This document shows positions 8,155 through 21,821 of a DNA stretch of 64,000 nucleotides, piece after piece. Numbering within the stretch: the first letter of the stretch is position 1; each line of letters starts with the position of its first letter. Source of the DNA: Marinomonas sp. CT5. Lineage in GTDB: Bacteria > Pseudomonadota > Gammaproteobacteria > Pseudomonadales > Marinomonadaceae. The position numbers and the translations under genes were made by a program. Below the pieces are notes generated by a model. It was not told where the DNA came from. It worked only from the letters and a program-made list of their open reading frames with translations, and searched no databases. The DNA lies in NCBI RefSeq assembly GCF_018336975.1, contig NZ_CP025572.1, positions 3,226,884 to 3,290,883 on the forward strand, read 5' to 3'.

Positions 8155-9144
8155 TCACAACCAGTTAGTCAGCATAATACCAATACCAAGTGATTGTGTT
8201 TGATGATTGTAATCCAATAGAGATTGTCCGTAGCCGTTAAAATACTGAATGTAACCGCGTGTTTTACCCCATAATGGAAAATTAAATCCCACCTGTATCG
8301 CACCTCGATTATTAGAAGATTTCAGATTATTTCTCAGCATAATATCAATGCTGTAATCATCGATAATGTGGATTAAATTAAATTCACCATAGCCGTAATA
8401 GTTTTCGATATCTGGGTTGTCATCCATATCTTTGCTTTCAGGAATGCGATACCAAGGCTTAAATGAAAAAGCAGTATCACCATGCTCAAACAAAAAATCC
8501 ATATAAAATCGATTCCAAGAACGCGAGAGATCTCCAGACTGTCCATTGGATTGATGAACAAAACCATAGGAAATATAATCTGGATTGATACCTAAAAATC
8601 CATGTTTTGGCTTAGTAACAATGAAAGCTTCAGGCTCATGATTGGTATCACGAAATGGTGCTGAAATTGTACTGTTATAAGCCTGCCAATAGGCCTGTTG
8701 CGTATAAGCAAACCAGAGGCTAGTGTCTCGTCCCACTACGTCATAGGCAACTGGAAACTTAAAACTCAACTGAAATTTAAACTCCACACTGTCCAAACTT
8801 TCAGAGTCTGTTTTATTCCCTAAAAAGGCCCGATCATTAGGATTAGACGTATAAGCAATTGGCAAAAAATAATTTGGCTTATGAGGTGTTAATACAAACG
8901 GGTTATTGACCGTTGCCGCTTCTCGATTCTCTCTTTGTTGCAACAACCCTTTGTCTTCTTTAGCACGTTTGGAGATTGACTCAGGCACCTGAGGCTCTTC
9001 TGGTGAGTATGAAGTATCTTCTTCACTCACATCAGGACTCGTATTTTTCGAGGCACTAGATGTAACGTCCTCTGACTTAATTGGCTCCACTTGAGCCCAA
9101 AGCAAACTTGGAACAAGCATCATTGAACAGACAATGGCTTTCAT
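8155..9144 (-). CDS. pldA: Outer-membrane phospholipase A
   Basis: This 329-residue protein starts at 9144, where an AAGG ribosome site and a short signal peptide ending SLLWAQ support the start. An acidic, low-complexity linker (residues 20-85) precedes the beta-barrel. The barrel carries the catalytic block YGFVHQSNGQSGDLSRSWNR with the His-x-Ser pair and the downstream Asn of the PldA active site. It ends in alternating hydrophobic strands with a C-terminal aromatic/Leu residue, typical of outer-membrane barrels. It is the last gene of a four-gene run, 31 bases after the CHMI-like gene. The linker is longer than in the enterobacterial enzyme. Confidence 0.9.
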   Translation of the reverse strand: MKAIVCSMMLVPSLLWAQVEPIKSEDVTSSASKNTSPDVSEEDTSYSPEEPQVPESISKRAKEDKGLLQQRENREAATVNNPFVLTPHKPNYFLPIAYTSNPNDRAFLGNKTDSESLDSVEFKFQLSFKFPVAYDVVGRDTSLWFAYTQQAYWQAYNSTISAPFRDTNHEPEAFIVTKPKHGFLGINPDYISYGFVHQSNGQSGDLSRSWNRFYMDFLFEHGDTAFSFKPWYRIPESKDMDDNPDIENYYGYGEFNLIHIIDDYSIDIMLRNNLKSSNNRGAIQVGFNFPLWGKTRGYIQYFNGYGQSLLDYNHQTQSLGIGIMLTNWL

Positions 9145-9175
9145 TATTAGGACCTTATAAGTGAAAAGCTCTATA

Positions 9176-9526
9176 TTAAGGAGAAAGAATAACCTTTTTG
9201 GCATAGGCTTCTCGCTCCATTTCACACACTTCAACGGAAAAGCTAACATCCTTTAATGAAAACTGTATTAAAGCTTCAAGAACGAAATGAGAAAGCTGCT
9301 GTCTCTGCTCCAATGACCGTCCCGAAAGCACTCTCAACACAACATGCACGAAAGCATCTTCTTTCCCAGCCATTAAAAAGTTCTTATACGGAACACTACG
9401 CAATTTTATATCTTCTTCCATAAACAGTTGAGATGCTATACACGCACCTTTTACGGCCTCTAATAAATCTGCCGGTGGCACTTCTTGTTCTAAGTTTTGA
9501 CTGTATTCAACAATACAATGCGGCAT
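9176..9526 (-). CDS. 5-carboxymethyl-2-hydroxymuconate isomerase family
   Basis: This 116-residue protein starts MPHCIVEYSQNLE; after Met removal, Pro becomes the catalytic N-terminal base of the CHMI/tautomerase superfamily. The segment AFVHVVLRVLSGRSLEQRQQLS near residues 58-80 is characteristic of CHMI (HpaF). In homoprotocatechuate degradation CHMI acts after ring cleavage, but no other hpa genes are here, so the substrate may differ. It lies between ghrA-like and pldA genes with gaps of about 30 bases. Confidence 0.85.
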   Translation of the reverse strand: MPHCIVEYSQNLEQEVPPADLLEAVKGACIASQLFMEEDIKLRSVPYKNFLMAGKEDAFVHVVLRVLSGRSLEQRQQLSHFVLEALIQFSLKDVSFSVEVCEMEREAYAKKVILSP

Positions 9527-9556
9527 ATCAGACTCCCTTTTATATATTTTATTTCA

Positions 9557-10492
9557 TTAATAACCGCGAAGTAGATCAACAGCGGGAGGGATATTTCCCG
9601 TCAATCGGTACGCTTTTATATTCTTAGCAACAATCTCACTTGCACTTACAAGGTGTGTAGGCGCAGAAATATGAGGCAACACAGTCACACGATCATGTTT
9701 CCAGTAAGCATGTTCCTGTGCCAAAGGTTCTTGTACAAAGACATCTAATACTGCATGAGACATATCCCCTGTCTCCAATTTTTTTAGCAAGGCTTCGTCA
9801 TCAATAACTGGCCCGCGAGCAAAATTGATCAGACTGGCTCCAATAGGTAGAAATGATAGATTTTGCTGTCCCATTAAACCTTGTGTTTCTTTCGTCAAAG
9901 GTAAAAGACAAACGAGTATATCAGTTTGTTTTAACAAATGAGTTAATCCATCCTCTCCATAAAAACACTCAACTCCATCAATCTGCTTGGGGTGACGACT
10001 CCAACCAGCAACAGAAAAACCGTTGGCCGCCAAACGTTGTGCACTGACTCTTCCAAGCTCCCCTAATCCCAGTACACCAATTCGACGGTCTTTAGCATGC
10101 ACCATAGGTTGTTGTTGCCAAACGGTATTGGCTTGCTGCTTTGCATAAATTGGCATGTCTCGATGAAGGTAAAGTGTCCATGCTAGAACGGCTTCCGACA
10201 TGGTTGCAGAAAGATTTTCATCAATTAACCGAACAATTGAAAAAGGAGGAGACTCTAATTCATTCAACATGCGTTCAACCCCAGCCCAAACACTGTGCAC
10301 CCATTTCAATGAAGGTAACGAAAGTAAATCGCTAGGGTTGGGGTTAGCAACAATCGCGATATCACATTGCAGACGTTGCTCTAACGTTAAATCATTTAAA
10401 GGGACAATCACTTCATTCGGCATGGCCGCAGAAAGCTGCTCTATCCAATTCGTTTGCTCAGCCACATCCGCACGACTAACAAAAGGAATCAT
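9557..10492 (-). CDS. ghrA: Glyoxylate/hydroxypyruvate reductase A
   Basis: This 311-residue D-2-hydroxyacid dehydrogenase has an NAD(P) loop GVLGLGELGRVSAQRLA near residue 138. Its catalytic residues are Arg in INFARGPVID, Glu in FVQEPLAQEH and His in VLPHISAPT. The spacing and the SVWAGVERML block match the GhrA branch, which reduces glyoxylate and hydroxypyruvate. The start overlaps the stop of the VOC gene as ATGA, implying coupled translation. Confidence 0.87.
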   Translation of the reverse strand: MIPFVSRADVAEQTNWIEQLSAAMPNEVIVPLNDLTLEQRLQCDIAIVANPNPSDLLSLPSLKWVHSVWAGVERMLNELESPPFSIVRLIDENLSATMSEAVLAWTLYLHRDMPIYAKQQANTVWQQQPMVHAKDRRIGVLGLGELGRVSAQRLAANGFSVAGWSRHPKQIDGVECFYGEDGLTHLLKQTDILVCLLPLTKETQGLMGQQNLSFLPIGASLINFARGPVIDDEALLKKLETGDMSHAVLDVFVQEPLAQEHAYWKHDRVTVLPHISAPTHLVSASEIVAKNIKAYRLTGNIPPAVDLLRGY

Positions 10493-10908
10493 TTTTCATA
10501 CACCTGAGTCAGATCTTTGAAGCCTTTTAATTCAATGGCATTACCACTTGGGTCCTTAAAAAACATCGTCCATTGTTCACCTGGTAGCCCTTCAAAACGA
10601 ACGCTTGGAGCAAGGTCAAAGACCACATTCGCTTCGGTTAAACGTTTAGCGACTTTTTGCCAATCATCTAACGCTAAAATCAAACCAAAATGAGGCATGG
10701 GAACCAGGTGGTCCCCTACTCGACCAGTGTTTGTTGTTTGCGCTGGCACGCCTAAATGAAGTGATAGTTGATGACCATAAAAGTCAAAGTCTATCCATGT
10801 ATCACTACTACGACCTTCAGCACAGCCTAAAATCTGAGTATAAAAAGCTCGAGTCTCTTCTAATGAGGTCACATGAAAGGCGTAATGGAACAAAGCGGAC
10901 ATAGGCAT
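10489..10908 (-). CDS. VOC (glyoxalase/dioxygenase superfamily) protein
   Basis: This 139-residue protein has the two beta-alpha-beta-beta-beta modules of the vicinal oxygen chelate fold. It starts with FHYAFHVTSLEETRAFYTQILG, has a histidine in GHQLSLHLG and ends with FFKDPSGNAIELKGF; the H and E positions are the usual metal ligands. It is the first gene of the run VOC-ghrA-CHMI-pldA. The substrate is unknown. Confidence 0.85.
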   Translation of the reverse strand: MPMSALFHYAFHVTSLEETRAFYTQILGCAEGRSSDTWIDFDFYGHQLSLHLGVPAQTTNTGRVGDHLVPMPHFGLILALDDWQKVAKRLTEANVVFDLAPSVRFEGLPGEQWTMFFKDPSGNAIELKGFKDLTQVYEK

Positions 10909-11313
10909 TCCTAAAAATCATAAATAGGTCTAAAAAATACAGCAAGCAGGCCAAAAGTAAACATAAGGAGGCTATACCGATACAAATAGCAAGTATTAGA
11001 AAAAGGAATAACTATCTGCTTAATTTAAGTCTTTAATGGATCCAACTGTAAGCCAATTAGCATTGATTAAAGCCATCACACTCCATTGCTAGTCAGTTTT
11101 TGTCGCCAAGCACACTTTTAAATGTTTCCTTGTATCAATGCTTTGTCACTTTTCATGGCGATTTGTATCAATTTGAAAAGCGATATATACACTCAAAAAA
11201 GTTTTTATATACTCAAAAGACAGTCATTGAATTTTTAGATTTTTCTAACTATTTATTTTTATTGACTACACTTATGGCTATTGAATGTGACAGATATTTT
11301 AAGGACAAAAATT
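10909..11313. promoter_or_regulatory. Divergent intergenic region upstream of the chemosensory operon
   Basis: This 405-base stretch is AT-rich and holds no convincing gene. Two exact copies of TTGTATCAAT lie at 11130-11139 and 11163-11172, 33 bases apart. A pair of ATATAC(AC)TCAAAA-like elements follows at about 11186-11222. These are candidate regulator sites for the operon starting at 11314. I could not assign a -35/-10 pair with confidence. Confidence 0.4.
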
Positions 11314-12486
11314 TTGCGACTTCTTTTGATTCATTGTTTTACATTGGTTATAGCAGGGATTCTAGTTTATGAATCTTTATTGTGGGAAGCACTTGCTCTT
11401 CTCGCAGCTTCCGGTTTTATTCCAGCTTTACTAACAAAATCCTCCCAAAAAGCTGCCAACAATTCAGGTGACATTGAAGAGGCAGCAACGGACAAAGATC
11501 CAACCGCCAAAGTGGATCCCATTCAAGCCGATCACGTTTCTATTCCTGAAGCGCTTTTTAGCCGAGATTTGGTTCCTCTGTTAAATGTTTGTGGTGAAGA
11601 TCTTAGCAATGTCCATGCAACGCAAAAAAATGCGGTAGAAGTACTCAACAATGCATTTGTTGAAACAAATACATTAATTGACCAACAAGCAAGCTGCATT
11701 CATCGCTTAGTTGAAACAGACTCTGACGAAAATAAGTACTACAGCGAAGTCATGCGGGAGTTTGCAGCACAAACCGCCACGACATTAGATAAGTTTATTG
11801 AAAGCACCATCGAAATGTCAGCCTCATCAATGGAGTTACTTTCAAAAGTAAACGAAATACATGATGAAATGCCTGAAATAGCCAAAGCGCTAAAGGACAT
11901 AGATGACATTGCTGACCAAACCAACCTTCTTGCCCTCAATGCAGCGATTGAGGCCGCCCGTGCAGGTGAAGCAGGACGAGGATTCGCCGTCGTAGCAGAT
12001 GAAGTTCGATCTCTATCGAACCGATCCTCAGGCTTTAGTGTTGCCATTCAAGCTCGTCTCAAAAAAATCCAAGATCAGGTCTCAAGCTTAACAAAAGCTA
12101 TGGAACATTTAGCCGCTCATGATGTGACTTACATTATGGAGTCTAAAAAGACCATGAACAGTGCCTTAGAGCATATTGTTAGCAAAGCAGAAAGTGATGC
12201 TGAAATCACGCTAGAACTCGAACAACTAGCTAAATCCTTAGAGTCCGCCATTTTCGATGCAACCAGAGCCCTACAGTTTGATGATATCAATGGTCAAAAT
12301 ATTGAATACACCATTGAAGTACTCAACTTCATGGGAGAGCAATTAAGCTCGGTTGATGATCAGTCTTCAGACAATATTGAACATGTACTAAGGGATAAAT
12401 TAGAAATAATCAAACAACGTAGCCAGCAAAAGCACAATCCTGTTTCTCAGAAAAACATTGAAAGTGGCGACATTGATTTATTTTAA
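11314..12486 (+). CDS. Membrane-anchored MCP-like protein with CheZ-like DxxxQ motif
   Basis: I place the start at TTG 11314 because AAGGA at 11301-11305 is spaced 8 bases from it, giving 390 residues. The N-terminus has one or two short hydrophobic segments (about 5-45) and no periplasmic sensor domain. The receptor tip is present: [20 protein letters not shown] and [15 protein letters not shown] near 200-235. The C-terminal half does not look like a normal return helix. It contains [14 protein letters not shown] near residues 319-332, whose DINGQ matches the DLTGQ (D143/Q147) catalytic motif of E. coli CheZ, and the protein ends SGDIDLF. I infer a hybrid of receptor hairpin and CheY-P phosphatase. 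It is the first gene of the che operon, in the position of the extra MCP in the P. aeruginosa che2 cluster. Confidence 0.85.
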
Positions 12487-12505
12487 ATAAGGATGCGAGG
12501 TTTAT

Positions 12506-12784
12506 ATGTCTGAAAACATAGTAATTAATTTGCCTGAAAGATTCGATTTTAGTACTCACGGATGGTTTACCAAAGCTTACGAGGACGCTTTAACGAAATC
12601 AAAAACCATTGTATTGGATTTTTCTCGAGTTACCTATGTCGACTCTTCGGCATTGGGAATGATGGTTCTGTTCCACCGACAACTAAGTACCAAGACCGGT
12701 AAAGGCGTCATTCGCAATGTGAACGGTACAGCAAAAGATATTTTAGACATGGCTAATTTTGAGAAGTTATTTAGCTATGAGTAA
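12506..12784 (+). CDS. STAS-domain anti-sigma-factor antagonist
   Basis: This 92-residue single-domain STAS protein has VTYVDSSALGMMVLF, matching the DSSGLG phosphorylation loop of SpoIIAA/RsbV; Ser47 is the likely phosphosite. In partner switching the unphosphorylated form binds a kinase or another target, and a PP2C phosphatase resets it. The next gene encodes both a PP2C and a HATPase domain and overlaps this one by 8 bases, so the pair is almost certainly a functional unit. GAGG precedes the ATG. Confidence 0.9.
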   Translation: MSENIVINLPERFDFSTHGWFTKAYEDALTKSKTIVLDFSRVTYVDSSALGMMVLFHRQLSTKTGKGVIRNVNGTAKDILDMANFEKLFSYE

Positions 12785-14432
12785 TGCAAGCAAAGTTCTT
12801 TTATTAGAGGATAACGCCTCCAGCCGCTTAATAGTGTCGAAAGCACTTGAAAGGAAAGGTATTGAGGTGGTCTTAACATCGACGCTGGAAGAAGTGCGTC
12901 AATGCTTTGGCGATAGCTCTATAAAACTTTTCTTATTAGATGTACACCTGCCAGATGGTATGTCCGATGAACTGATTCCAGAGATTCGTCAACTTTACCC
13001 TATGGCACCGATTCTGATGATTACCGCAGAATACGATACCGCTCACATGGCACAACTGTTTGATGCTGGCGTAAAAGACTTTATTCAAAAACCCATTCTT
13101 CCCTTGCTTTTATCAAATAAAGTACAAAGTTTTCTAGACTGGTCAGAAGTCGAACAAGCACTATTCAGAGCAAACGAAAACTACCTTTCAATCATGCAAG
13201 AAAAAGAACAAGAGGAAGAGCTTGCTTTCTTTGTCTACGATCACATTTTAAACACCCACTCATACCAAATAGAAGGGGTGAATGTTGCAACCCTGTCCAG
13301 TGGCAGGTTTTGCGGAGACATTTTGATCTCTGCTAAATCTCCCAACGGCAATTTAATTATTATGCTTGGAGACGCCACAGGTCATGGCATGGCCGCTGCA
13401 CTGACTATTTATCCTATGGTAGTAACCTTTCATGCCATGGTGAAAAAAGGTTTATCAACAGGTGCGATTTTATGTGAGCTCAGCGACAAACACGCTGAAA
13501 CCGTACCAAGCAATCGTTTTTTCGCCTGCATTTTGATTGAAATATCTTTATCAAAAAACACCATTAGCATCTGGAATGGCGGCATGCCAAACGTGCTTAT
13601 TTTCGATAAAAAGCAAAATCTTATCGATAAAATTCCAGCAAAAAATATGGCAATAGGTATTTTGCCAACGAATGATATCAATACGAAGTTTGAAACATTT
13701 TCTTTAGATAGTATTGAGTACATTTCATTTTTTAGTGATGGCCTGATTGAAAATAAAATGAATGAAAGCGCGATGCTCAACTTTAATGAAGCCTACTCCA
13801 TAATTGCCGAGTTCCCTGACGACCCTGCTTACACAATAACTCGCATGCATGCGATGGAAGCAGATTTAACCGTTAGCCATGATGACATGACCCTTTGCAG
13901 CTTAAATCTTGAGGTATTAAAGAAAGAACTCTCTGATAAGCCGCTCCCAAAACAAAGTCCAAAAGGCAACTTTTCATTTAATTTTGAATTAAATGGCGAC
14001 GCATTGCTCAACGAGAACCTCACTTTAAAACTCATTGAGCTGCTTGAAACTTATGGTTTTTCTCAGTCATTTTGCCAAAAAGTATTTACGGTTCTGACTG
14101 AATTGCTTGTTAACTCAGTGGATCATGGCATTTTAAACGTTGATTCTAGCCTGAAAAAAACAGACTTCATCTCTTACCTAGACCATAGAACGGCTGCGAT
14201 TAATCAGCTGAGTAATCAACAGAATATCACCGTATCGGTTCGTTGGGACTCACAACAAAAAGCGCTTTTACTGACCGTCTCGGACTCTGGTAGCGGCTAT
14301 CAAATGGAGAAAGAAATTACAGCTTCGAATGATCAAACCTATGGGAGAGGCTTAAGCATTATAAATACTTTATGCAATGACTTTACCTATGATCATAACA
14401 CCAACACAACACATACAACCTTACGATATTAG
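12777..14432 (+). CDS. Receiver-PP2C(SpoIIE)-HATPase regulator (HsbR-like)
   Basis: This 551-residue protein starts at ATG 12777 inside the end of the STAS gene. Its domains, in order, are: a receiver (1-120) with acceptor Asp55 in FLLDVHLP and Lys105 in FIQKP; a short helix; a PP2C/SpoIIE phosphatase (about 165-375) with Asp181 in CGDILIS and Asp199 in LGDATGHG; and a GHKL ATPase (about 420-551) with ELLVNSVDHG, SDSGSGY and GRGLSII boxes. This is the architecture of Pseudomonas HsbR, which both phosphorylates and dephosphorylates its STAS partner HsbA. Here the receiver could take phosphate from CheA, linking the array to a partner switch; that link is inferred from context. Confidence 0.9.
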   Translation: MSNASKVLLLEDNASSRLIVSKALERKGIEVVLTSTLEEVRQCFGDSSIKLFLLDVHLPDGMSDELIPEIRQLYPMAPILMITAEYDTAHMAQLFDAGVKDFIQKPILPLLLSNKVQSFLDWSEVEQALFRANENYLSIMQEKEQEEELAFFVYDHILNTHSYQIEGVNVATLSSGRFCGDILISAKSPNGNLIIMLGDATGHGMAAALTIYPMVVTFHAMVKKGLSTGAILCELSDKHAETVPSNRFFACILIEISLSKNTISIWNGGMPNVLIFDKKQNLIDKIPAKNMAIGILPTNDINTKFETFSLDSIEYISFFSDGLIENKMNESAMLNFNEAYSIIAEFPDDPAYTITRMHAMEADLTVSHDDMTLCSLNLEVLKKELSDKPLPKQSPKGNFSFNFELNGDALLNENLTLKLIELLETYGFSQSFCQKVFTVLTELLVNSVDHGILNVDSSLKKTDFISYLDHRTAAINQLSNQQNITVSVRWDSQQKALLLTVSDSGSGYQMEKEITASNDQTYGRGLSIINTLCNDFTYDHNTNTTHTTLRY

Positions 14433-14440
14433 GATGAATT

Positions 14441-14806
14441 ATGAGTAAAAAACTACTTATTGTTGATGACTCCCCTTCTGTTCGCCAAATGGTCGAAATG
14501 ACTCTTAAAGGTGCTGGTTATACAGTGCAAACGGCTAATGATGGACAAGCGGCATTAAGTCTTTGTAAGTCTGACCGCTTTGACTTTGTCCTAACAGATC
14601 AAAACATGCCCAATATGGATGGTCTGACTTTAATCAAGTCACTACGAGCCATGCCGACTTATGCTCGCGTACCACTCATTGTTTTGACAACAGAGGCTGG
14701 AGAAACCATGAAACAGAAAGGCAAAGCAGCTGGAGCCACTGGCTGGATGGTTAAACCATTTGACCCCAAAAAGCTGCTCGAAGTCGTTTCCAAAGTGCTT
14801 CGTTAA
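14441..14806 (+). CDS. cheY: CheY-like single-domain response regulator
   Basis: This 121-residue stand-alone receiver has Asp9/Asp10 in LIVDDSPS, acceptor Asp53 in FVLTDQNMPNMDG, Thr in VLTTEAGE and Lys105 in MVKPFDPKKL. There is no output domain. It sits 8 bases after the partner-switch regulator and just before cheA, so CheA is its probable kinase. It may act on a target other than the flagellar motor, as for CheY2 of P. aeruginosa. Confidence 0.92.
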   Translation: MSKKLLIVDDSPSVRQMVEMTLKGAGYTVQTANDGQAALSLCKSDRFDFVLTDQNMPNMDGLTLIKSLRAMPTYARVPLIVLTTEAGETMKQKGKAAGATGWMVKPFDPKKLLEVVSKVLR

Positions 14807-14839
14807 TAGTCTCATTTTGCAAATTCATTGAGAGACAGT

Positions 14840-16861
14840 ATGGATAATTTAAGTCAATACAATGAGGTTTTTTTCGAGGAGGCACAAGAACACCTCGAAA
14901 CAATGGAAACACTATTGCTTGCCTATGATGTCGATGCACCCGATATGGAAGAGCTCAATAGTGTTTTCCGTGCTGCTCACTCCATAAAAGGAGGCAGCGA
15001 CATTTTTGGCTTCAAAGCTTTGACAGGGTTAACTCATGTTATGGAAAACATGCTGGACTCTGCGAGAAATAATGAACTGACTTTAACCACCGATCTCATC
15101 ACAGTTCTATTAGAAACTACCGATGTACTAAAAAATATTCTCAGTTGTTATCGTGAAGAAGCTGAGATTGACTGGGACATTATTGAAGCAAGCAAGGAAC
15201 AGCTAGGTGCTAAGTTACAAGAAGTCACAGGAGCAGAAGAATCTAATGACCTGCTAAAAGAGGAAGAAGACCCAGGGTTTGGTTTTTTTGATGACGACGA
15301 AGCTGATGATGACCCAGGGTTCGGCCTTTTTGACGATGACGAGCCCAACTCAGAGGAAGAGCAAGGCTTTGGTTTTTTTGATGATGACGAACCCAACTCA
15401 GAGGAAGAGCAAGGCTTTGGCTTTTTTGATGATGACGATAATAAACAGAATGAAGAAAAAGAGTCTGCTGAAGAGAATGTTGGCTTTGGTTTCTTTGACG
15501 AAAACATGGGCGACTCAAAAAATGCAGACGATAAGCCACAGCAAGATGAAAACATTGGCTACGGCTTCTTTAATGAAGAGCCTCAAACTGAACCTGCAGC
15601 TACTCCTGTAGAGAATACACCGGCGCCACAACAAGCTGCAACGCAGAAAAAAGCAGCTGTAAAAGCACCGGCAAAAGCAACCGAAACCAAATCAGAAGCC
15701 ACCAGCATTCGAGTTGAAACGAATAAAATAGATAAGCTTGTTAACTTGGTGGGTGAACTGGTTATCACTCAATCCATGCTCAACTTAATCGGTAATGACG
15801 TAGGTGAAAGTGTCGCAGATAAAATGCAATCGGCTTTAACTGAGCTCGAAAGAAACACTCGAGAAATTCAAGAAGCCGTTATGTCAGTTCGTATGCTGCC
15901 TATTTCCTTTGTATTCAACCGTTTTCCCAGACTGGTTCGAGATTTATCAACCAAACTAGAGAAAAAAATCAACCTAATCATTGAGGGCGGAAATACAGAA
16001 ATTGACAAAAATTTAGTGGAGAAAATCTCAGACCCTCTTCTACATTTAATTAGAAACAGCGTTGACCATGGGATCGAAATGCCATCGAAACGCTTAGAGG
16101 CCAATAAAGACGAAACAGGCATAGTGAAACTTTCTGCGGCCCAGAAAGGTGGCGAAATTGTCATCACCATTACAGATGACGGCGCAGGGTTAAACCGAGA
16201 CCGAATCCTAGAGAAAGCCCTAGAAAAAGGTATCTCTTTACCTGAACCGTTAACCGATAGCGCGGTTTGGCAATTGATATTTGAAGCCGGCTTCTCCACC
16301 GCAGCCGAAGTGACCGATGTATCAGGTCGAGGCGTTGGTATGGATGTGGTACGAAGAAATATCGAGTCTCTCGGTGGACGTATTGATATCAGCTCAACCG
16401 CTGGAATGGGCACTGTCTTTACCATCAACTTGCCTCTGACACTGGCTATTCTTGACGGTATGACAGTCGAGGCATCGGATCAAGTATTCATCATCCCTCT
16501 TGTCAATATTGTTGAAAGCATCCAACCCGTTTCTGAGCAAATCAAACAGATAAAAGGCAAACAACTACTTTGGGTTCGTGATGAATACTGGCCTCTTATT
16601 GATATAGGTAAAACATTAGGAGGCAACGTAAACGCTACCGATATGGAATCAGGAATTGTTGTTCTTGTCGAAACCTCGAAGCAACGGTTTGGAATTGTGG
16701 TTGACTCACTTTTAGGTCAACAACAGGTCGTCATTAAAAACTTAGAGCGACATTATCGTCGCGTAGAAGGCATTGCTGGCGCAACCATAATGGGTGATGG
16801 CAGTGTGGCGTTAATTTTAGATGTCGATTCAATCACTCAATTTATTAAATCGGACTTATAG
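14840..16861 (+). CDS. cheA: Chemotaxis histidine kinase CheA with GFGFF repeats
   Basis: This 673-residue protein starts at ATG 14840. The Hpt domain has His47 in AAHSIKGGSDIFGF. Residues 145-245 carry six GFGFF-type motifs in a very acidic context where a P2 domain is expected. An Ala/Pro/Lys linker (250-288), a dimerisation domain (IDKLVNLVGELVITQSML), an ATPase domain with HLIRNSVDHGIE, ITDDGAGL and GRGVGMDVV, and a C-terminal CheW-like domain (about 540-670) follow. It phosphorylates CheY and CheB and possibly the upstream receiver-PP2C protein. The CheW ribosome site overlaps its stop codon. Confidence 0.96.
   Translation: MDNLSQYNEVFFEEAQEHLETMETLLLAYDVDAPDMEELNSVFRAAHSIKGGSDIFGFKALTGLTHVMENMLDSARNNELTLTTDLITVLLETTDVLKNILSCYREEAEIDWDIIEASKEQLGAKLQEVTGAEESNDLLKEEEDPGFGFFDDDEADDDPGFGLFDDDEPNSEEEQGFGFFDDDEPNSEEEQGFGFFDDDDNKQNEEKESAEENVGFGFFDENMGDSKNADDKPQQDENIGYGFFNEEPQTEPAATPVENTPAPQQAATQKKAAVKAPAKATETKSEATSIRVETNKIDKLVNLVGELVITQSMLNLIGNDVGESVADKMQSALTELERNTREIQEAVMSVRMLPISFVFNRFPRLVRDLSTKLEKKINLIIEGGNTEIDKNLVEKISDPLLHLIRNSVDHGIEMPSKRLEANKDETGIVKLSAAQKGGEIVITITDDGAGLNRDRILEKALEKGISLPEPLTDSAVWQLIFEAGFSTAAEVTDVSGRGVGMDVVRRNIESLGGRIDISSTAGMGTVFTINLPLTLAILDGMTVEASDQVFIIPLVNIVESIQPVSEQIKQIKGKQLLWVRDEYWPLIDIGKTLGGNVNATDMESGIVVLVETSKQRFGIVVDSLLGQQQVVIKNLERHYRRVEGIAGATIMGDGSVALILDVDSITQFIKSDL
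15272..15571 (+). repeat. Repeats encoding GFGFF/acidic motifs in cheA
   Basis: Six copies of a short unit encode [P/Q/V/I]-G-[F/Y]-G-[F/L]-F-[D/N]-(D/E)n. Two central units are near-identical at DNA level with a 48-base (16-codon) period, beginning with CCCAACTCAGAGG at 15344 and again at 15392. This suggests recent slippage or unequal crossing-over, while the outer copies have diverged. Confidence 0.85.
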
Positions 16862-16873
16862 GAGGCATTCAAT

Positions 16874-17356
16874 ATGACAACACTTCAGCAGGGGAATACG
16901 TCTTCAATGCCTGCAAAAGAGTTCTTAACATTTGTATTAGGCGATGAAGCCTATGCACTTGATATTATGACGGTTAAAGAAATTCGCGGTTATGAATCAG
17001 CAACCAAAATTGCCAATGCACCAGATTATATTAAAGGGGTAATTAACCTACGTGGCGATATTGTGCCGATTGTCGATTTACGAATTAAATTCAACATAGG
17101 CGAAGCCACTTATAACGAATGGACCATTGTAATCATGTTAAACGTGCGTGATCGCGTTGTTGGGATAGTTGTCGATGGTGTGTCCGATGTAATGAATTTA
17201 GAAGCCGAAGATATTAAACCCGCACCGGAATTTGGTGTAGCTTTCGATAGCCGTTATTTGCATGGACTTGCCGCTTTGGAGGACCAGATGGTCATCATCG
17301 TTGATATCGAAGAGCTCATATCAAGTGATGAGATAGGCGTATTCGAAGGTACATAA
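16874..17356 (+). CDS. cheW: Chemotaxis coupling protein CheW
   Basis: This 160-residue protein has the CheW fold: FLTFVLGDEAYALDIMTVKEI, then INLRGDIVPIVDLRIKF near residue 57, and a C-terminal LAALEDQMVIIVDIEELI. It docks the receptor tip to CheA. An AGGAGG ribosome site overlaps the cheA stop codon, implying coupled expression. The N-terminus has an extension of about 15 polar residues and the C-terminus ends in an acidic tail. Confidence 0.95.
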   Translation: MTTLQQGNTSSMPAKEFLTFVLGDEAYALDIMTVKEIRGYESATKIANAPDYIKGVINLRGDIVPIVDLRIKFNIGEATYNEWTIVIMLNVRDRVVGIVVDGVSDVMNLEAEDIKPAPEFGVAFDSRYLHGLAALEDQMVIIVDIEELISSDEIGVFEGT

Positions 17357-17428
17357 AAAAACAAACATTATTCACAGTTGGCCTTCAAGGCTTCACCGTA
17401 AACAAGATACATAGGAAGGGTTAATGCC

Positions 17429-19309
17429 ATGTTAAAAAGCCTATTTTCAAAGCGATTAGATGATAATCAAATAATTATCGACAAAGATGTCTGGGTAAAC
17501 GCTCAAGGTCAATTAGATGCTTTAACGCGATCTCAAGCTATCATAGAGTTCGACTTGCATGGCAATATCTTAGTTGCCAACGACAATTTCCTTAATACTC
17601 TTGGTTACACTCTGGAAGAGGTTCAAGGTAAACACCACAGTATTTTTGTGGACAATAAATATCGCAACAGTCGAGAGTATAAAGAGTTTTGGGCGAGACT
17701 AAACAACGGTGAATTCCAAAGTGGCGAGTTTTGCCGCTATAGCAAAACTGGAGAGGCCGTTTGGATTGAAGCAAGCTACAACCCTATTTTTGACGCCAAT
17801 AACAAGCCCTTCAAAGTGGTTAAGTTTGCGACGGATATCACCGAAAAGAAAAAACAGAATACGGATTATGTTAGTCAGTTAGACGCCATTTCTAAAGCTC
17901 AAGCCGTTATATCTTTTGAGCTTGATGGAACCATTATTAGCGCTAACGATAATTTTTTAAATACGCTTGGCTACACTCTTGGGGAAGTTCAAGGCAAACA
18001 CCATAGTCTGTTTATCGATTCCGAATACAAAAAATCAGAAGAGTATCGTAATTTCTGGCGCAGCCTAGCAAATGGTGAACATTTCATTGGCCGTTTTCCT
18101 CGCGTCCATAAAAACGGCAAAGTTATTTGGATACAAGCTAACTACAGCCCGATTCGTGACCCAAGCGGCACACCCTATAAAGTGGTGAAATTTGCAACGG
18201 ACATTACTGCGGAAGTCGAAGCCGAGCAGCAACTTCAGCTCACTGTAAGCCAAGTCAATGCCGCCATTGATGCCGCCGTAAATAATGACCTAACACAACG
18301 AGTGGCAACCGAAAATAAAACCGACATGATGCTGAGTATTTCGCAAGGGGTAAACTCTCTGCTTGATACCATGACGGACATTATCATTAACATTAAAAAT
18401 GCCTCTGATGCTGTGTATACCGGTGCTCGTGAAATATCCAACGGTAACACAGACCTTTCTAATCGTACCGAGCAACAAGCTTCTAGCTTAGAAGAAACGG
18501 CGTCTAGCATGGAAGAATTAACTGGAACGGTTCGCCAAAATGCCGACAGTGCTAAACAAGCAAACAATCTTGCATCCTCGGCAGTAACCATAGCCATTGA
18601 TGGCGGACATCTAATAGAAGATGTCGTGAAAACGATGGCGTCGATTAATGAGTCTTCGCAAAAAATTGCTGACATCATTGGCATGATCGATGGCATTGCT
18701 TTCCAAACGAATATCCTAGCGCTGAACGCCGCAGTCGAAGCGGCCAGAGCAGGAGAACAGGGTCGAGGCTTTGCCGTTGTTGCCTCTGAGGTAAGAACAT
18801 TAGCGCAACGTTCAGCCAATGCGGCAAAAGACATCAAAGACCTCATTTCTGAATCTGCGACCAAAATTAATAATGGTAATGAGTTGGTCAATAAATCCGG
18901 AGACACCATGCGAGAAGTTGTCTCTTCGATCAAGCAAGTTAATGACATTATGACTGAGATCGCGAGTGCATCCGCAGAGCAATCTTCTGGATTAGATGAA
19001 ATAGGCAAAGCCGTTAGTCAAATGGATGAGATGACTCAACAAAATGCCGCGCTGGTTGAGGAAGCCGCCGCAGCGGCTGAAAGTCTGTTAAGTCAAGCAG
19101 ATCAATTAACCAGTAATGTCAATCAATTCCAATTGGGTGACGACCATCAATCTCAACCGATGAAGCAAATCGCCCATTTGCAGAAGCCAACCACATCAAA
19201 GTCTCCTGCAACAAAAAAACTTCCTCCGGCATCAACACCGGTTAAAAAAGCCAATCCATTACCAAAACCTCAAATTGATGACGAAGACGATGGTTGGGAG
19301 GAGTTCTAA
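17429..19309 (+). CDS. Soluble PAS-PAS chemoreceptor with GWEEF tail (Aer2/BdlA-like)
   Basis: This 626-residue protein has no membrane segment. Two PAS domains (about 30-140 and 152-262) are close duplicates: both contain [21 protein letters not shown], a W-x-R-L/W-R-S-L helix and [12 protein letters not shown] or [16 protein letters not shown]-like segment follows (about 270-320), then a full receptor signalling domain with [22 protein letters not shown] at the tip. A Pro/Lys-rich flexible linker leads to the C-terminal pentapeptide GWEEF. GWEEF is the CheR2-docking pentapeptide of P. aeruginosa Aer2/McpB (PA0176), so this receptor should be modified by the CheR/CheB of this cluster. Ligand (redox, heme-oxygen or other) is not visible. 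Confidence 0.93.
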
Positions 19310-19314
19310 ATCTT

Positions 19315-20112
19315 ATGGAAAGGGAATTTGGCTTCACGTTACGTGATTTTAATAAGGTGCGAGCTATCCTTGTCGGATTGACAGGGATAAATCTCGCTGA
19401 CTCAAAAGAGTCCCTTGTATATAGCCGCCTAACTCCTAGAATTCGAAAGCTGGGGTTAGGCAGTACTAAAGACTACTTGAACTATCTAGAAGACAATCCA
19501 GATGAGCAAGAAAACTTTATCAATGCTCTAACCACCAATCTAACGTCGTTTTATAGAGAGCCTCATCACTTTAGTATTTTGGCGCAATATATAAATCAAG
19601 GAGAACCGGTTAAAAGAATTTGGTGTGCGGCATCCAGTACTGGCGAAGAGCCTTATTCCATAGCCATGAGCCTAGTAAAAGCCTATGGACGATTCAATCA
19701 TGATGTAAAAATCATTGCTTCAGATATTGATAGCAAAGTTCTCGAAGCGGCTAATCGTGGCACTTACCCAATAGAAAAAGTAGAAGCGTTACCTGATAAA
19801 AAGAGTTTTTTTATGAAAGGCAAAGGCAGCAATTTAGGTCTAGCCAAAGTTGTTCCGCAACTGCGTGACATGATTGAATTCATACGCATTAATTTACTAG
19901 ATGAAAGCCTTCCAATAGAACCCAACTTAGACGTGATATTTTGCCGTAACGTGATGATTTATTTTGATAAAGACACGCAAGCAAAAATACTAACTAAGTT
20001 ACTGGCCAAACTTCGTCCCGGTGGGCTCTATATTGCGGGTCATTCCGAAAACTTTTCTCACTTTTCCCACGTAATAAAACCCATTGGTCGAACAGCATAC
20101 ATTAAGCTGTAA
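19315..20112 (+). CDS. cheR: Chemotaxis protein methyltransferase
   Basis: This 265-residue protein methylates receptor glutamates with S-adenosylmethionine. The N-terminal helical domain contains LVYSRLTPRIRKLGL; the catalytic domain has TNLTSFYREPHHF, AASSTGEEPYSIAM for SAM binding, DVIFCRNVMIYFD, and LYIAGHSENF near the C-terminus. I start at ATG 19315. Its ribosome site GGGAGGAG lies inside the codons for the GWEEF tail of the preceding receptor, so the docking tail and CheR translation are physically linked. Confidence 0.95.
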   Translation: MEREFGFTLRDFNKVRAILVGLTGINLADSKESLVYSRLTPRIRKLGLGSTKDYLNYLEDNPDEQENFINALTTNLTSFYREPHHFSILAQYINQGEPVKRIWCAASSTGEEPYSIAMSLVKAYGRFNHDVKIIASDIDSKVLEAANRGTYPIEKVEALPDKKSFFMKGKGSNLGLAKVVPQLRDMIEFIRINLLDESLPIEPNLDVIFCRNVMIYFDKDTQAKILTKLLAKLRPGGLYIAGHSENFSHFSHVIKPIGRTAYIKL

Positions 20113-20121
20113 GGTTGAACT

Positions 20122-20742
20122 ATGGCATTAAAAGAATCGGTAATTGAACATTTTTCAACACGAAAACACTTCGACAATACGTTTGATATTATGTCGTACA
20201 AGGTACTACCAGGAGAATACTACGCAACCAACGAAGACGTCATGATTACCACATTGTTAGGGTCATGTGTCTCAGTTTGTTTGTATGATTCCACGGCAAA
20301 AGTAGGAGGAATGAACCACTTCCTTCTACCTGAAGGAGGAGATGCAAACGATCTACTGTCTTCGGCAGGTCGCTATGGTGTCTACGCGATGGAATTATTG
20401 ATCAATCACCTTATTAAACTGGGTGCTCGTCGAAGTCATTTTAAAGCTAAAGTCTTCGGTGGTGGCAGTGTGATCAAAGGCATGACGACCCACAACATAG
20501 GTAAGAAAAATGTCGAATTTATTCAATCTTACTTACAAAATGAAGGTATCTCTATCGAGTCCTCAGACCTGCTAGATGTCTATCCAAGACGGGTAAACTT
20601 CTTTCCTGCTAGTGGCCGAGTGATGATGAAGAAATTACGTCAACACCATGATACCGAAGCCATTAACTGTGAATTACGTTATAGAAAAGCGATCTCTTCT
20701 GTCAGTCAAGATAACGACTCAGGTGATGTTGACTTGTTTTAA
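20122..20742 (+). CDS. cheD: Receptor glutamine deamidase CheD
   Basis: This 206-residue protein has TTLLGSCVSVCLYD with active-site Cys49, GGMNHFLLP with His66, and FGGGSVIKGM in the second half, all hallmarks of CheD. CheD deamidates receptor glutamines and in some species binds CheC or CheY-P phosphatases. It ends in SGDVDLF, nearly identical to the SGDIDLF tail of the MCP-like protein at 11314. The extra C-terminal part (about 30 residues beyond the core) carries this tail. Confidence 0.93.
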   Translation: MALKESVIEHFSTRKHFDNTFDIMSYKVLPGEYYATNEDVMITTLLGSCVSVCLYDSTAKVGGMNHFLLPEGGDANDLLSSAGRYGVYAMELLINHLIKLGARRSHFKAKVFGGGSVIKGMTTHNIGKKNVEFIQSYLQNEGISIESSDLLDVYPRRVNFFPASGRVMMKKLRQHHDTEAINCELRYRKAISSVSQDNDSGDVDLF

Positions 20743-20759
20743 TCTTTTGATGGGGCACT

Positions 20760-21821
20760 ATGCAATCTAAAAAAACAAAGGTACTGATTGTCGATGACTC
20801 TGTTTCTATACAAAAAGTTCTACGGGAAGTCATTGAATCGGACCCAGACTTAGAAGTTGTCGGCGCAGCAAACGATGCTTTTGAAGCCAAGCAAATGGTG
20901 AATGACCTATCTCCTGATGTCATTACCTTAGATGTTGAAATGCCTAAAGTAAGCGGCTTACGTTTTCTTGAGGTATTAATGAAGGTCAAACCAACTCCTG
21001 TTGTGATGATCTCAACACTGACAAAAGCAAACGCGGATACAACATTAAAAGCACTAGAATTAGGTGCCGTTGACTACATTGCAAAACCACAGCTCAACCA
21101 AAAAGAAATGTTCTTGCGTTATCAAAAAATGGTCATCAAGAAAATTCGTATGGCGGCAGCGTGTAATATTAAGACGGGCATTGATCACACCTCACCTCCC
21201 TCTCCCTCCTCAACAAAAGAATCCTTCACTTCCAATAAAGTACTTGCTATTGGCGCTTCTACGGGAGGAACAGAAGCGATCAATTACTTGCTTGGACAAC
21301 TTCCCAGTGCGAATTTTGCCCTTCTGATTGTTCAACACATGCCTGCTGGCTTTACTTCTACTTTTGCTAGTAGATTAGACAGAACGACAGACTTTACTGT
21401 TGTTGAAGCACAAGGGGGCGAATTAATTCGTCCAGGAGTGGCTTACCTTGCTCCTGGTGATTTTCACATGAAAGTTATCCGCTCAAATGGCCAGCTCTAC
21501 ACCGAGATATTTAAGGCTGAAAAAGTAGCAGGCCATCGCCCTTCCGTTGATGTACTTTTTAAATCCGTTGCTGATGAAATTGGTCGTCACGCATTTGCCA
21601 CTTTATTAACCGGTATGGGGAAAGATGGCGCTCGTGGTCTAAAAGCGATAAAAAACACAGGAGGGTTTACTGTCGTACAAGATGAGTCGTCATGCGTTGT
21701 GTATGGTATGCCAAGGGTCGCGGTAGAAATGAATGCTGCAAGTATAGTGACGCCATTAAACAATATAAAAGAAACATTTATCGGCAAGCTACGCAAAACA
21801 CCGTCTAAACAAACCAGCTAA
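20760..21821 (+). CDS. cheB: Chemotaxis methylesterase CheB
   Basis: This 353-residue protein has a receiver (1-125) with acceptor Asp58 in ITLDVEMPKVSG. A linker of about 30 residues rich in Ser/Pro/Thr leads to the methylesterase domain with the catalytic triad: Ser in AIGASTGGTEAI, His in IVQHMPAGF and Asp in TGMGKDGARG. It removes methyl groups from receptors when phosphorylated by CheA. It is the last gene of the operon, followed by a strong terminator. Confidence 0.96.
   Translation: MQSKKTKVLIVDDSVSIQKVLREVIESDPDLEVVGAANDAFEAKQMVNDLSPDVITLDVEMPKVSGLRFLEVLMKVKPTPVVMISTLTKANADTTLKALELGAVDYIAKPQLNQKEMFLRYQKMVIKKIRMAAACNIKTGIDHTSPPSPSSTKESFTSNKVLAIGASTGGTEAINYLLGQLPSANFALLIVQHMPAGFTSTFASRLDRTTDFTVVEAQGGELIRPGVAYLAPGDFHMKVIRSNGQLYTEIFKAEKVAGHRPSVDVLFKSVADEIGRHAFATLLTGMGKDGARGLKAIKNTGGFTVVQDESSCVVYGMPRVAVEMNAASIVTPLNNIKETFIGKLRKTPSKQTS

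Follow-up and report, generated by a model that had tools for sequence, protein, structure and literature searches.

A stage 2 F7 chemosensory operon of Marinomonas sp. CT5 with a probable CrsR/CrsA partner switch

Introduction

How might a chemosensory array control a sigma factor? The question is raised by a locus of Marinomonas sp. CT5 (positions 11314-21821 of the window, i.e., the whole stretch of 64,000 nucleotides that was analysed, taken from contig NZ_CP025572.1), in which the genes for a STAS protein and for a protein combining receiver (REC), PP2C, and HATPase domains lie within a chemosensory operon of the F7 type. This operon probably belongs to stage 2 of the F7 class, includes a partner switch of the CrsR/CrsA kind, and is the orthologue of the Shewanella che1 locus.

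Several published systems serve as references. CrsR-CrsA is a partner switch for RpoS, the sigma factor of the general stress response, in which CrsR sequesters RpoS, and HsbR-HsbA is its counterpart in Pseudomonas aeruginosa, where HsbA also binds FlgM and the cyclase HsbD (available portions of PMC6482189). The che1 locus of Shewanella oneidensis consists of ten genes, coding for two receptors (SO_2117, or McpAso, and SO_2123, or Aer2so), CrsA, CrsR, and six Che proteins. Reverse transcription PCR indicated that so_2117 to so_2126 form one transcriptional unit, internal promoters not being excluded, and a possible role in RpoS control is given for Che1 (available portions of PMC9855816). Regarding classification, Ortega 2020 (available portions of PMC7184735) distinguishes stage 1 F7 clusters, with mcpA, the anti-sigma antagonist, and the serine phosphatase behind cheB, from stage 2 clusters, where these three genes have moved to the front; P. 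aeruginosa and S. oneidensis are both classed as stage 2. According to the same work, organisms with stage 1 or 2 clusters have cheZ in their F6 systems only, and McpA joins the F6 array and has a highly conserved C-terminus with an unclear role.

Classification of the Marinomonas Operon

The locus is a compact block of ten genes, all on the + strand, while the flanking genes on both sides point the opposite way. The order is mcpA-STAS-[REC-PP2C-HATPase]-cheY-cheA-cheW-aer2-cheR-cheD-cheB, with one cheW, and all ten proteins (10/10) have a Pfam match above the curated cut-off. The mcpA, STAS, and serine phosphatase genes are found upstream of the run from cheY to cheB, as in stage 2 clusters. 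As for CrsR/CrsA, the receiver, PP2C, and HATPase domains occur in a single protein whose gene adjoins the STAS gene, with an 8-base overlap. Residue inspection located Asp55 at the phosphoacceptor column of the receiver, together with the acidic pair, Thr83, and Lys105; the aspartates inspected in PP2C and the N-box residues inspected in the HATPase domain are present as well. In the STAS motif, Ser47 is the first serine after the aspartate, and is presumably the phosphorylated residue, by analogy with RsbV/SpoIIAA. Elsewhere in the genome, the search, which among F6 genes covered cheZ, found this gene ~0.45 kb from fliA.

The relationships of the CrsR-like protein were addressed with a quick tree of 86 proteins, which has several long branches, carries only Shimodaira-Hasegawa-like approximate likelihood ratio test (SH-aLRT) support, and from which most Pseudoalteromonas rows had been dropped beforehand. 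One clade of 27 rows (SH-aLRT 100) unites the operon protein with Shewanella CrsR and contains all 19 stage 2 rows. A second full copy in the Marinomonas genome lies outside that clade and pairs with a Pseudomonas putida protein (98). On this phylogeny, the operon protein is orthologous to Shewanella CrsR rather than to HsbR. Identification of the operon pair as HsbRA was considered and rejected, the operon CrsR being outside the group of the Pseudomonas copies. The second copy belongs to an HsbRA-like STAS + REC-PP2C-HATPase pair (G000:C1:3365258-3367200; L008, L010), located ~11 kb from fliA. Judging from domain content and tree position, this organism, thus, has both kinds of pair, a CrsRA linked to che genes and an HsbRA-like one linked to the flagellum. 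There is also a third STAS gene (G000:C1:2356700-2358236; L011), whose REC-PP2C protein is without a HATPase domain.

From its gene order and the CrsR phylogeny, the operon is placed as a stage 2 F7 cluster, and it is a new Marinomonas member of a published arrangement. An earlier, sequence-only reading of this DNA had described an F7-type operon carrying a partner-switch pair, which is borne out by the gene order, the Pfam domains, and the intact key residues. It had also described the pair as inserted between the receptor and cheY. This wording is apt when P. aeruginosa alone is the reference; against the ancestor described in the literature it fails, as PMC7184735, in the portions available, places the pair in ancestral stage 1 and in stage 2 clusters. 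With the stage 2 gene order of the Marinomonas operon, the pair does not count as inserted, and a recent insertion is rejected by the CrsR-locus survey described below, the stages of Ortega 2020, and the CrsR tree. The novelty implied by that reading has to be given up as well, because S. oneidensis che1 already has the same ten genes, with CrsA/CrsR acting on RpoS (available portions of PMC9855816); the locus architecture and its likely role are already published for S. oneidensis che1 and in Ortega 2020.

Recurrence of the Association

Two surveys of gene neighbourhoods, the first starting from CrsR and the second from F7 CheD, examined how often the pair accompanies such operons. In the first, a scan of species genomes confirmed at least 538 relatives, and the best 80 loci were compared. 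All ten genes, in the same order as in Marinomonas, are present in 20 of these 80 (L027-L040, L043, L050, L053, L054, L076, and L102), which include eight named genera (Aliiglaciecola, Bowmanella, Ningiella, Glaciecola, Cellvibrio, Shewanella, Reinekea, and Marinomonas). Three other loci (L056, L060, and L079) have F7 genes beside the STAS-CrsR pair in different orders. In eight Magnetococcales loci (L044, L046, L067, L072, L081, L086, L101, and L103), the pair is accompanied by a McpA-like receptor and by another CheA, of lower similarity. Two loci can be noted separately. In L043 (Shewanella hafniensis), the McpA, CrsR, and CheA frames are truncated or split in the assembly (8521-13991). L041, from a metagenome-assembled genome (MAG) of Saccharospirillaceae, has mcpA, STAS, CrsR, an Aer2-like receptor, and cheD, without a match for CheA, CheW, CheR, or CheB in the 19 kb examined.

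The second survey used a class-wide sample of 276 genomes, 87 of which, including the Marinomonas source genome, have an F7-type CheD at 1e-35. Out of 89 places other than the window's own, 80 F7 loci were examined; many are ended by contigs, so the counts are lower bounds. A CrsR-like gene (>250 bits) is present in at least 26 of the 80, 24 of these also having a STAS gene (>60 bits), for an expectation by chance of ~1 in 80, a rough estimate that assumes two copies per 3.3 Mb genome. The gene lies behind cheD on the same strand, which is the stage 1 layout, in 25 of the 26 (the exception being L172).

These figures bear on the possibility that the proximity of the pair to che genes is accidental and that the two have separate functions. 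It could be argued from the 51 of the 80 CrsR-like loci, the Pseudoalteromonas loci and L061 among them, in which no CheA above 200 bits was found in the stretches examined. Nevertheless, besides the excess over the chance estimate, the STAS and CrsR genes overlap in Marinomonas and the block is co-transcribed in Shewanella (available portions of PMC9855816). Chance adjacency is contradicted by both surveys and rejected as extremely improbable. The repeated, non-random association suggested by the sequence-only reading, for which a neighbourhood survey had been proposed as a check, is supported by the 20/80 ten-gene loci and the 26/80 F7 loci with CrsR.

A Proposed Route from the Array to RpoS

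Under the favoured reading, of a CrsR/CrsA switch governed by the operon's own array, the Aer2-like array would set CheA activity, and phosphate, either directly on Asp55 or indirectly via CheY, would set the balance between PP2C phosphatase and HATPase kinase in CrsR. This balance would, in turn, set the phosphorylation of STAS Ser47. Unphosphorylated STAS would bind the HATPase domain, leading to RpoS release, while with phosphorylated STAS, RpoS would stay sequestered. STAS phosphorylation and RpoS binding are here assumed by analogy with the Shewanella literature, and we infer the CheA-to-CrsR step. The source genome has an rpoS gene: of 19 genomes, 11 have an RpoS match that passes the curated cut-off, namely, all 11 gammaproteobacterial ones (the Marinomonas source and 10/10 others). 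Orthology points to RpoS as the output of the Marinomonas pair, which is favoured because the operon protein is the orthologue of Shewanella CrsR, while FlgM and a diguanylate cyclase are known as targets for the paralogue HsbA.

A number of observations weigh against this reading, at its input, its output, or the linkage itself. The first concerns the phosphoacceptor. Among 44 proteins near Shewanella xiamenensis CrsR (48-100% identity, not all named), 41 cover this site, with Asn in 38 and Asp in 3; S. oneidensis is unnamed in this list, so that its Asn is deduced from relatives. Judged by this residue, canonical CheA-to-Asp transfer looks impossible in the Shewanella group, where CrsR was studied, and, given Asn in 38/41, receiver phosphorylation cannot be a universal input. 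At the output, RpoS was above the cut-off in 0/8 Magnetococcales genomes with a CrsR-like/che linkage, although these are MAGs, in which absence is weak evidence; RpoS may, therefore, not be the target everywhere the linkage occurs. The two further STAS/REC-PP2C pairs of the Marinomonas genome could share targets with the operon pair. Finally, Glaciecola pallidula (L061) retains STAS-CrsR, while no che genes were matched within 10 kb of it, and the FGFF repeats of the CheA linker are not tied to CrsR, none being found in 18 of the 20 CrsR-linked CheA of the class set.

The input side leaves room for an alternative, in which the array signals to CrsR without receiver phosphorylation, a McpA-like receptor or phosphorylated CheY acting by binding, and Asp55 being fed by another kinase or by none. 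The Shewanella group, which kept the operon with Asn in 38/41 CrsR, is in line with it, as are the loci with McpA-STAS-CrsR and no F7 CheA match (L106, together with L087 and L100, both ended by contig ends) and the report that McpAso operates with another array, CheA3 (available portions of PMC9855816). Conversely, outside the Shewanella group the site is held: Asp occurs in 71/71 more distant hits of the same list (P0120-P0190) and in the Marinomonas rows. The receiver alignment gives the same picture, with Asp in Marinomonas and the other readable rows and Asn in S. xiamenensis P0031 and Shewanella oncorhynchi L038; Bowmanella L035 did not match at the site, and L043 and L101 gave no frame. 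Signalling independent of the receiver is considered rather unlikely. The earlier suggestion that the receiver could take phosphate is upheld in principle by Asp55, the acidic pair, Thr83, and Lys105, and with Asp55 the Marinomonas CrsR is a better test bed for the array-to-CrsR step than most Shewanella-group proteins.

Another alternative is that the main target of the STAS protein is FlgM or a diguanylate cyclase instead of RpoS, as for HsbA, which binds FlgM and HsbD (available portions of PMC6482189). The retention of the linkage in Magnetococcales would fit such a target, as would two diguanylate cyclases described below, which have a McpA/CheD-type tail in genomes having F7 CheD. However, an HsbRA-like pair near flagellar genes is already present in the source genome, and the copy in the che operon clusters with CrsR of Shewanella instead. 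A target other than RpoS is considered unlikely.

Returning to the proposed CheA-to-CrsR step, one feature of CheA deserves mention. Its linker (window 15250-15650) contains repeated GFGFF-acid motifs between the Hpt and dimerisation domains, and Pfam reported no P2 domain. The motif occurs in 3-5 copies in CheA of 20 stage 2 relatives, and was not found in 54 of 58 class-wide F7 CheA (whole-protein count). These repeats may take the place of P2 in the binding of receivers.

The C-Terminal Segment of McpA and a Shared Tail

McpA and CheD of the operon end alike, with SGDIDLF and SGDVDLF, respectively (consensus G[DE][VI][DE]LF). In the Marinomonas genome, GD-x-DLF endings are found only on these two proteins, and the reversed control pattern is not found at all. 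A tail of the same type is carried by CheD in 67 of the 80 F7 loci (loose pattern, last nine residues). Among 8343 stop-to-stop frames from these loci, the tail occurs on 58 CheD, 26 McpA, and seven others, i.e., six small motif-bearing proteins and one receptor. Across the 276 genomes, the strict pattern, which also admits TGG (at least one site ends so), gives 124 sites in 68 genomes, while its reversed control gives 12. It is present in 64/87 genomes with F7 CheD versus 4/189 without (Fisher 7e-38), an association that is partly built in, as CheD carries the tail. The 51 tail frames among the matches listed comprise 21 McpA, 17 CheD, two small proteins, two GGDEF proteins, five other receptors, and four short unassigned frames, Pfam confirming the identities of the GGDEF proteins and the five receptors. 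The two diguanylate cyclases (GGDEF domain; L220 and L232) end in G[DE][VI]ELF, as do McpA and CheD in their type of tail. In Magnetococcales, the receptor tail reads EG[DE][IV]ELF in 7/8 cases and EGGIELF in L072.

The segment of McpA preceding the tail is also conserved. In 33 aligned McpA, Q321, D324, Q328, G385, and F390 (Marinomonas numbering) are invariant, that of F390 being partly by choice, as rows were selected by an LF or FF ending; L043 and L105 had fallen out of the 35 first-set rows, and L100 was dropped as partial. In class-wide McpA, unselected by tail, both [LM]QFxDxxxQ and the tail are present in 26/26. LQFxDxxxQ has six matches in the Marinomonas genome, McpA being the only receptor among them. 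Six small stand-alone frames (158-202 amino acids) have [LF]QFxDxxxQ and the tail, all of them in F7 loci that yielded no McpA. Profile comparison identifies them as the McpA C-terminal segment alone (probability 98.4, E 9e-15), with a score that is raised by the motif and tail carried by both sets. Pfam gave nothing above cut-off for two of these small proteins.

Compared with a CheZ profile, the McpA segment scores 31.6 (P 4e-4), and its Asp and Gln align with the catalytic residues; none of 30 column shuffles exceeds 16.0, and an Aer2 control gives P 0.44. On this basis, it can tentatively be proposed that ancestral F7 systems own an unrecognised CheZ-like phosphatase module (QFxDxxxQ plus G[DE][VI][DE]LF), fused to McpA or separate, which acts on F7 CheY or the CrsR receiver, and whose tail docks McpA, CheD, receptors, and cyclases on one partner. 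The proposal is doubtful, as several results count against it. The HH probability of the CheZ comparison is only 36; the small proteins alone give P 0.06 versus CheZ and P 0.03 versus the Aer2 control, and, matching this control as well as CheZ, bring no support of their own for the CheZ link; and, within the 80 F7 loci, 14 frames have QFxDxxxQ but not the tail, 6 of these frames being CheR. Furthermore, Pfam reported no PF04344 (CheZ) match for McpA, and a Foldseek search with a McpA model (mean predicted local distance difference test score, pLDDT, 76.4; predicted template modelling score, pTM, 0.41) placed chemoreceptors at the top, CheZ being absent from the 50 matches listed.

If the proposal held, the CheZ-like segment would dephosphorylate F7 CheY or the CrsR receiver, and, with McpA in the F6 array, the motility array would drain the stress-control array, constituting a physical cross-talk point. 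Through the common tail, CheD, some other receptors, and two diguanylate cyclases would all dock on a single partner. This would bear on two puzzles raised by Ortega 2020 (available portions), namely, the F7 role of McpA while in the F6 array and the conservation of its C-terminus, and on the lack of cheZ in F7 clusters of stages 1 and 2. The main text of PMC7184735, in the portions available, has no mention of the McpA-CheD tail match or of the DxxxQ motif, its supplement lying outside this statement, and a literature search found no description of the tail peptide or of a CheZ-like receptor. The tail common to McpA and CheD, together with the separable segment of McpA, is, thus, a new lead, not found described in the literature searched.

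Features of the Operon

The features of the operon are collected in Table 1. For mcpA, the TTG start, as placed by the sequence-only reading, is retained; AAGGA is found 8 bases upstream, and the start lies 33 bases inside the longest open reading frame, which begins at 11281. A promoter scan gave 17 sites, fewer than the mean of 25.0 for shuffled sequences, with a single weak match upstream of the operon (11186-11213). For CrsR, a PDB sequence search returned receiver-domain matches among the matches listed, only 3eq2_A extending into the PP2C region.

Table 1. Coordinates (window numbering) and main characteristics of the operon features.
Feature	Coordinates	Strand	Characteristics
McpA-like chemoreceptor, 390 amino acids	11314..12486	+	PF00015; TTG start; short hydrophobic N-terminus, MCP signalling domain, C-terminal LQFDDINGQ segment, SGDIDLF tail
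Separable, possibly CheZ-like C-terminal segment of McpA	12139..12483 (approximate)	+	Bounds from alignment with the small stand-alone proteins; D324-x-x-x-Q328, C-terminal GDIDLF
STAS anti-sigma-factor antagonist, CrsA-like, 92 amino acids	12506..12784	+	PF01740/PF13466; DSSALGM (Ser47)
CrsR-like receiver-PP2C-HATPase protein, 551 amino acids	12777..14432	+	PF00072, PF07228 (SpoIIE), PF13581 (HATPase_c_2); ATG 12777; Asp55 intact
CheY, 121 amino acids	14441..14806	+	PF00072
CheA	14828..16861	+	Hpt, dimerisation, HATPase, and CheW domains; FGFF-acid repeats in the Hpt-dimerisation linker
CheW	16874..17356	+	PF01584
Aer2-like receptor, two PAS domains	17429..19309	+	Pfam; C-terminal GWEEF
CheR	19294..20112	+	PF01739/PF03705
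CheD	20122..20742	+	PF03975; ending SGDVDLF
CheB	20760..21821	+	PF01339/PF00072

Comparison with Known Systems

The putative CheZ likeness of the McpA segment lies in the DxxxQ of its Q-aromatic-x-D-x-x-x-Q stretch, followed by a linker and, at the C-terminus, an acidic peptide whose last residue is Phe; unlike CheZ, McpA is without a Pfam CheZ match and without CheZ among the fold-search matches listed. HsbR/HsbA of Pseudomonas shares the receiver-PP2C-HATPase plus STAS make-up with the operon pair, but forms a separate branch. With the stage 2 F7 cluster (PMC7184735, available portions), the Marinomonas gene order has no visible difference. The che1 locus of S. oneidensis has the same ten genes as the Marinomonas operon (PMC9855816, available portions), whose order is also that of S. 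oncorhynchi L038; an Aer2-like receptor with two PAS domains is common to both loci, and Shewanella CrsR is orthologous by shared clade. Compared with most Shewanella-group CrsR, which have Asn at the phosphoacceptor, the Marinomonas receiver retains Asp55.

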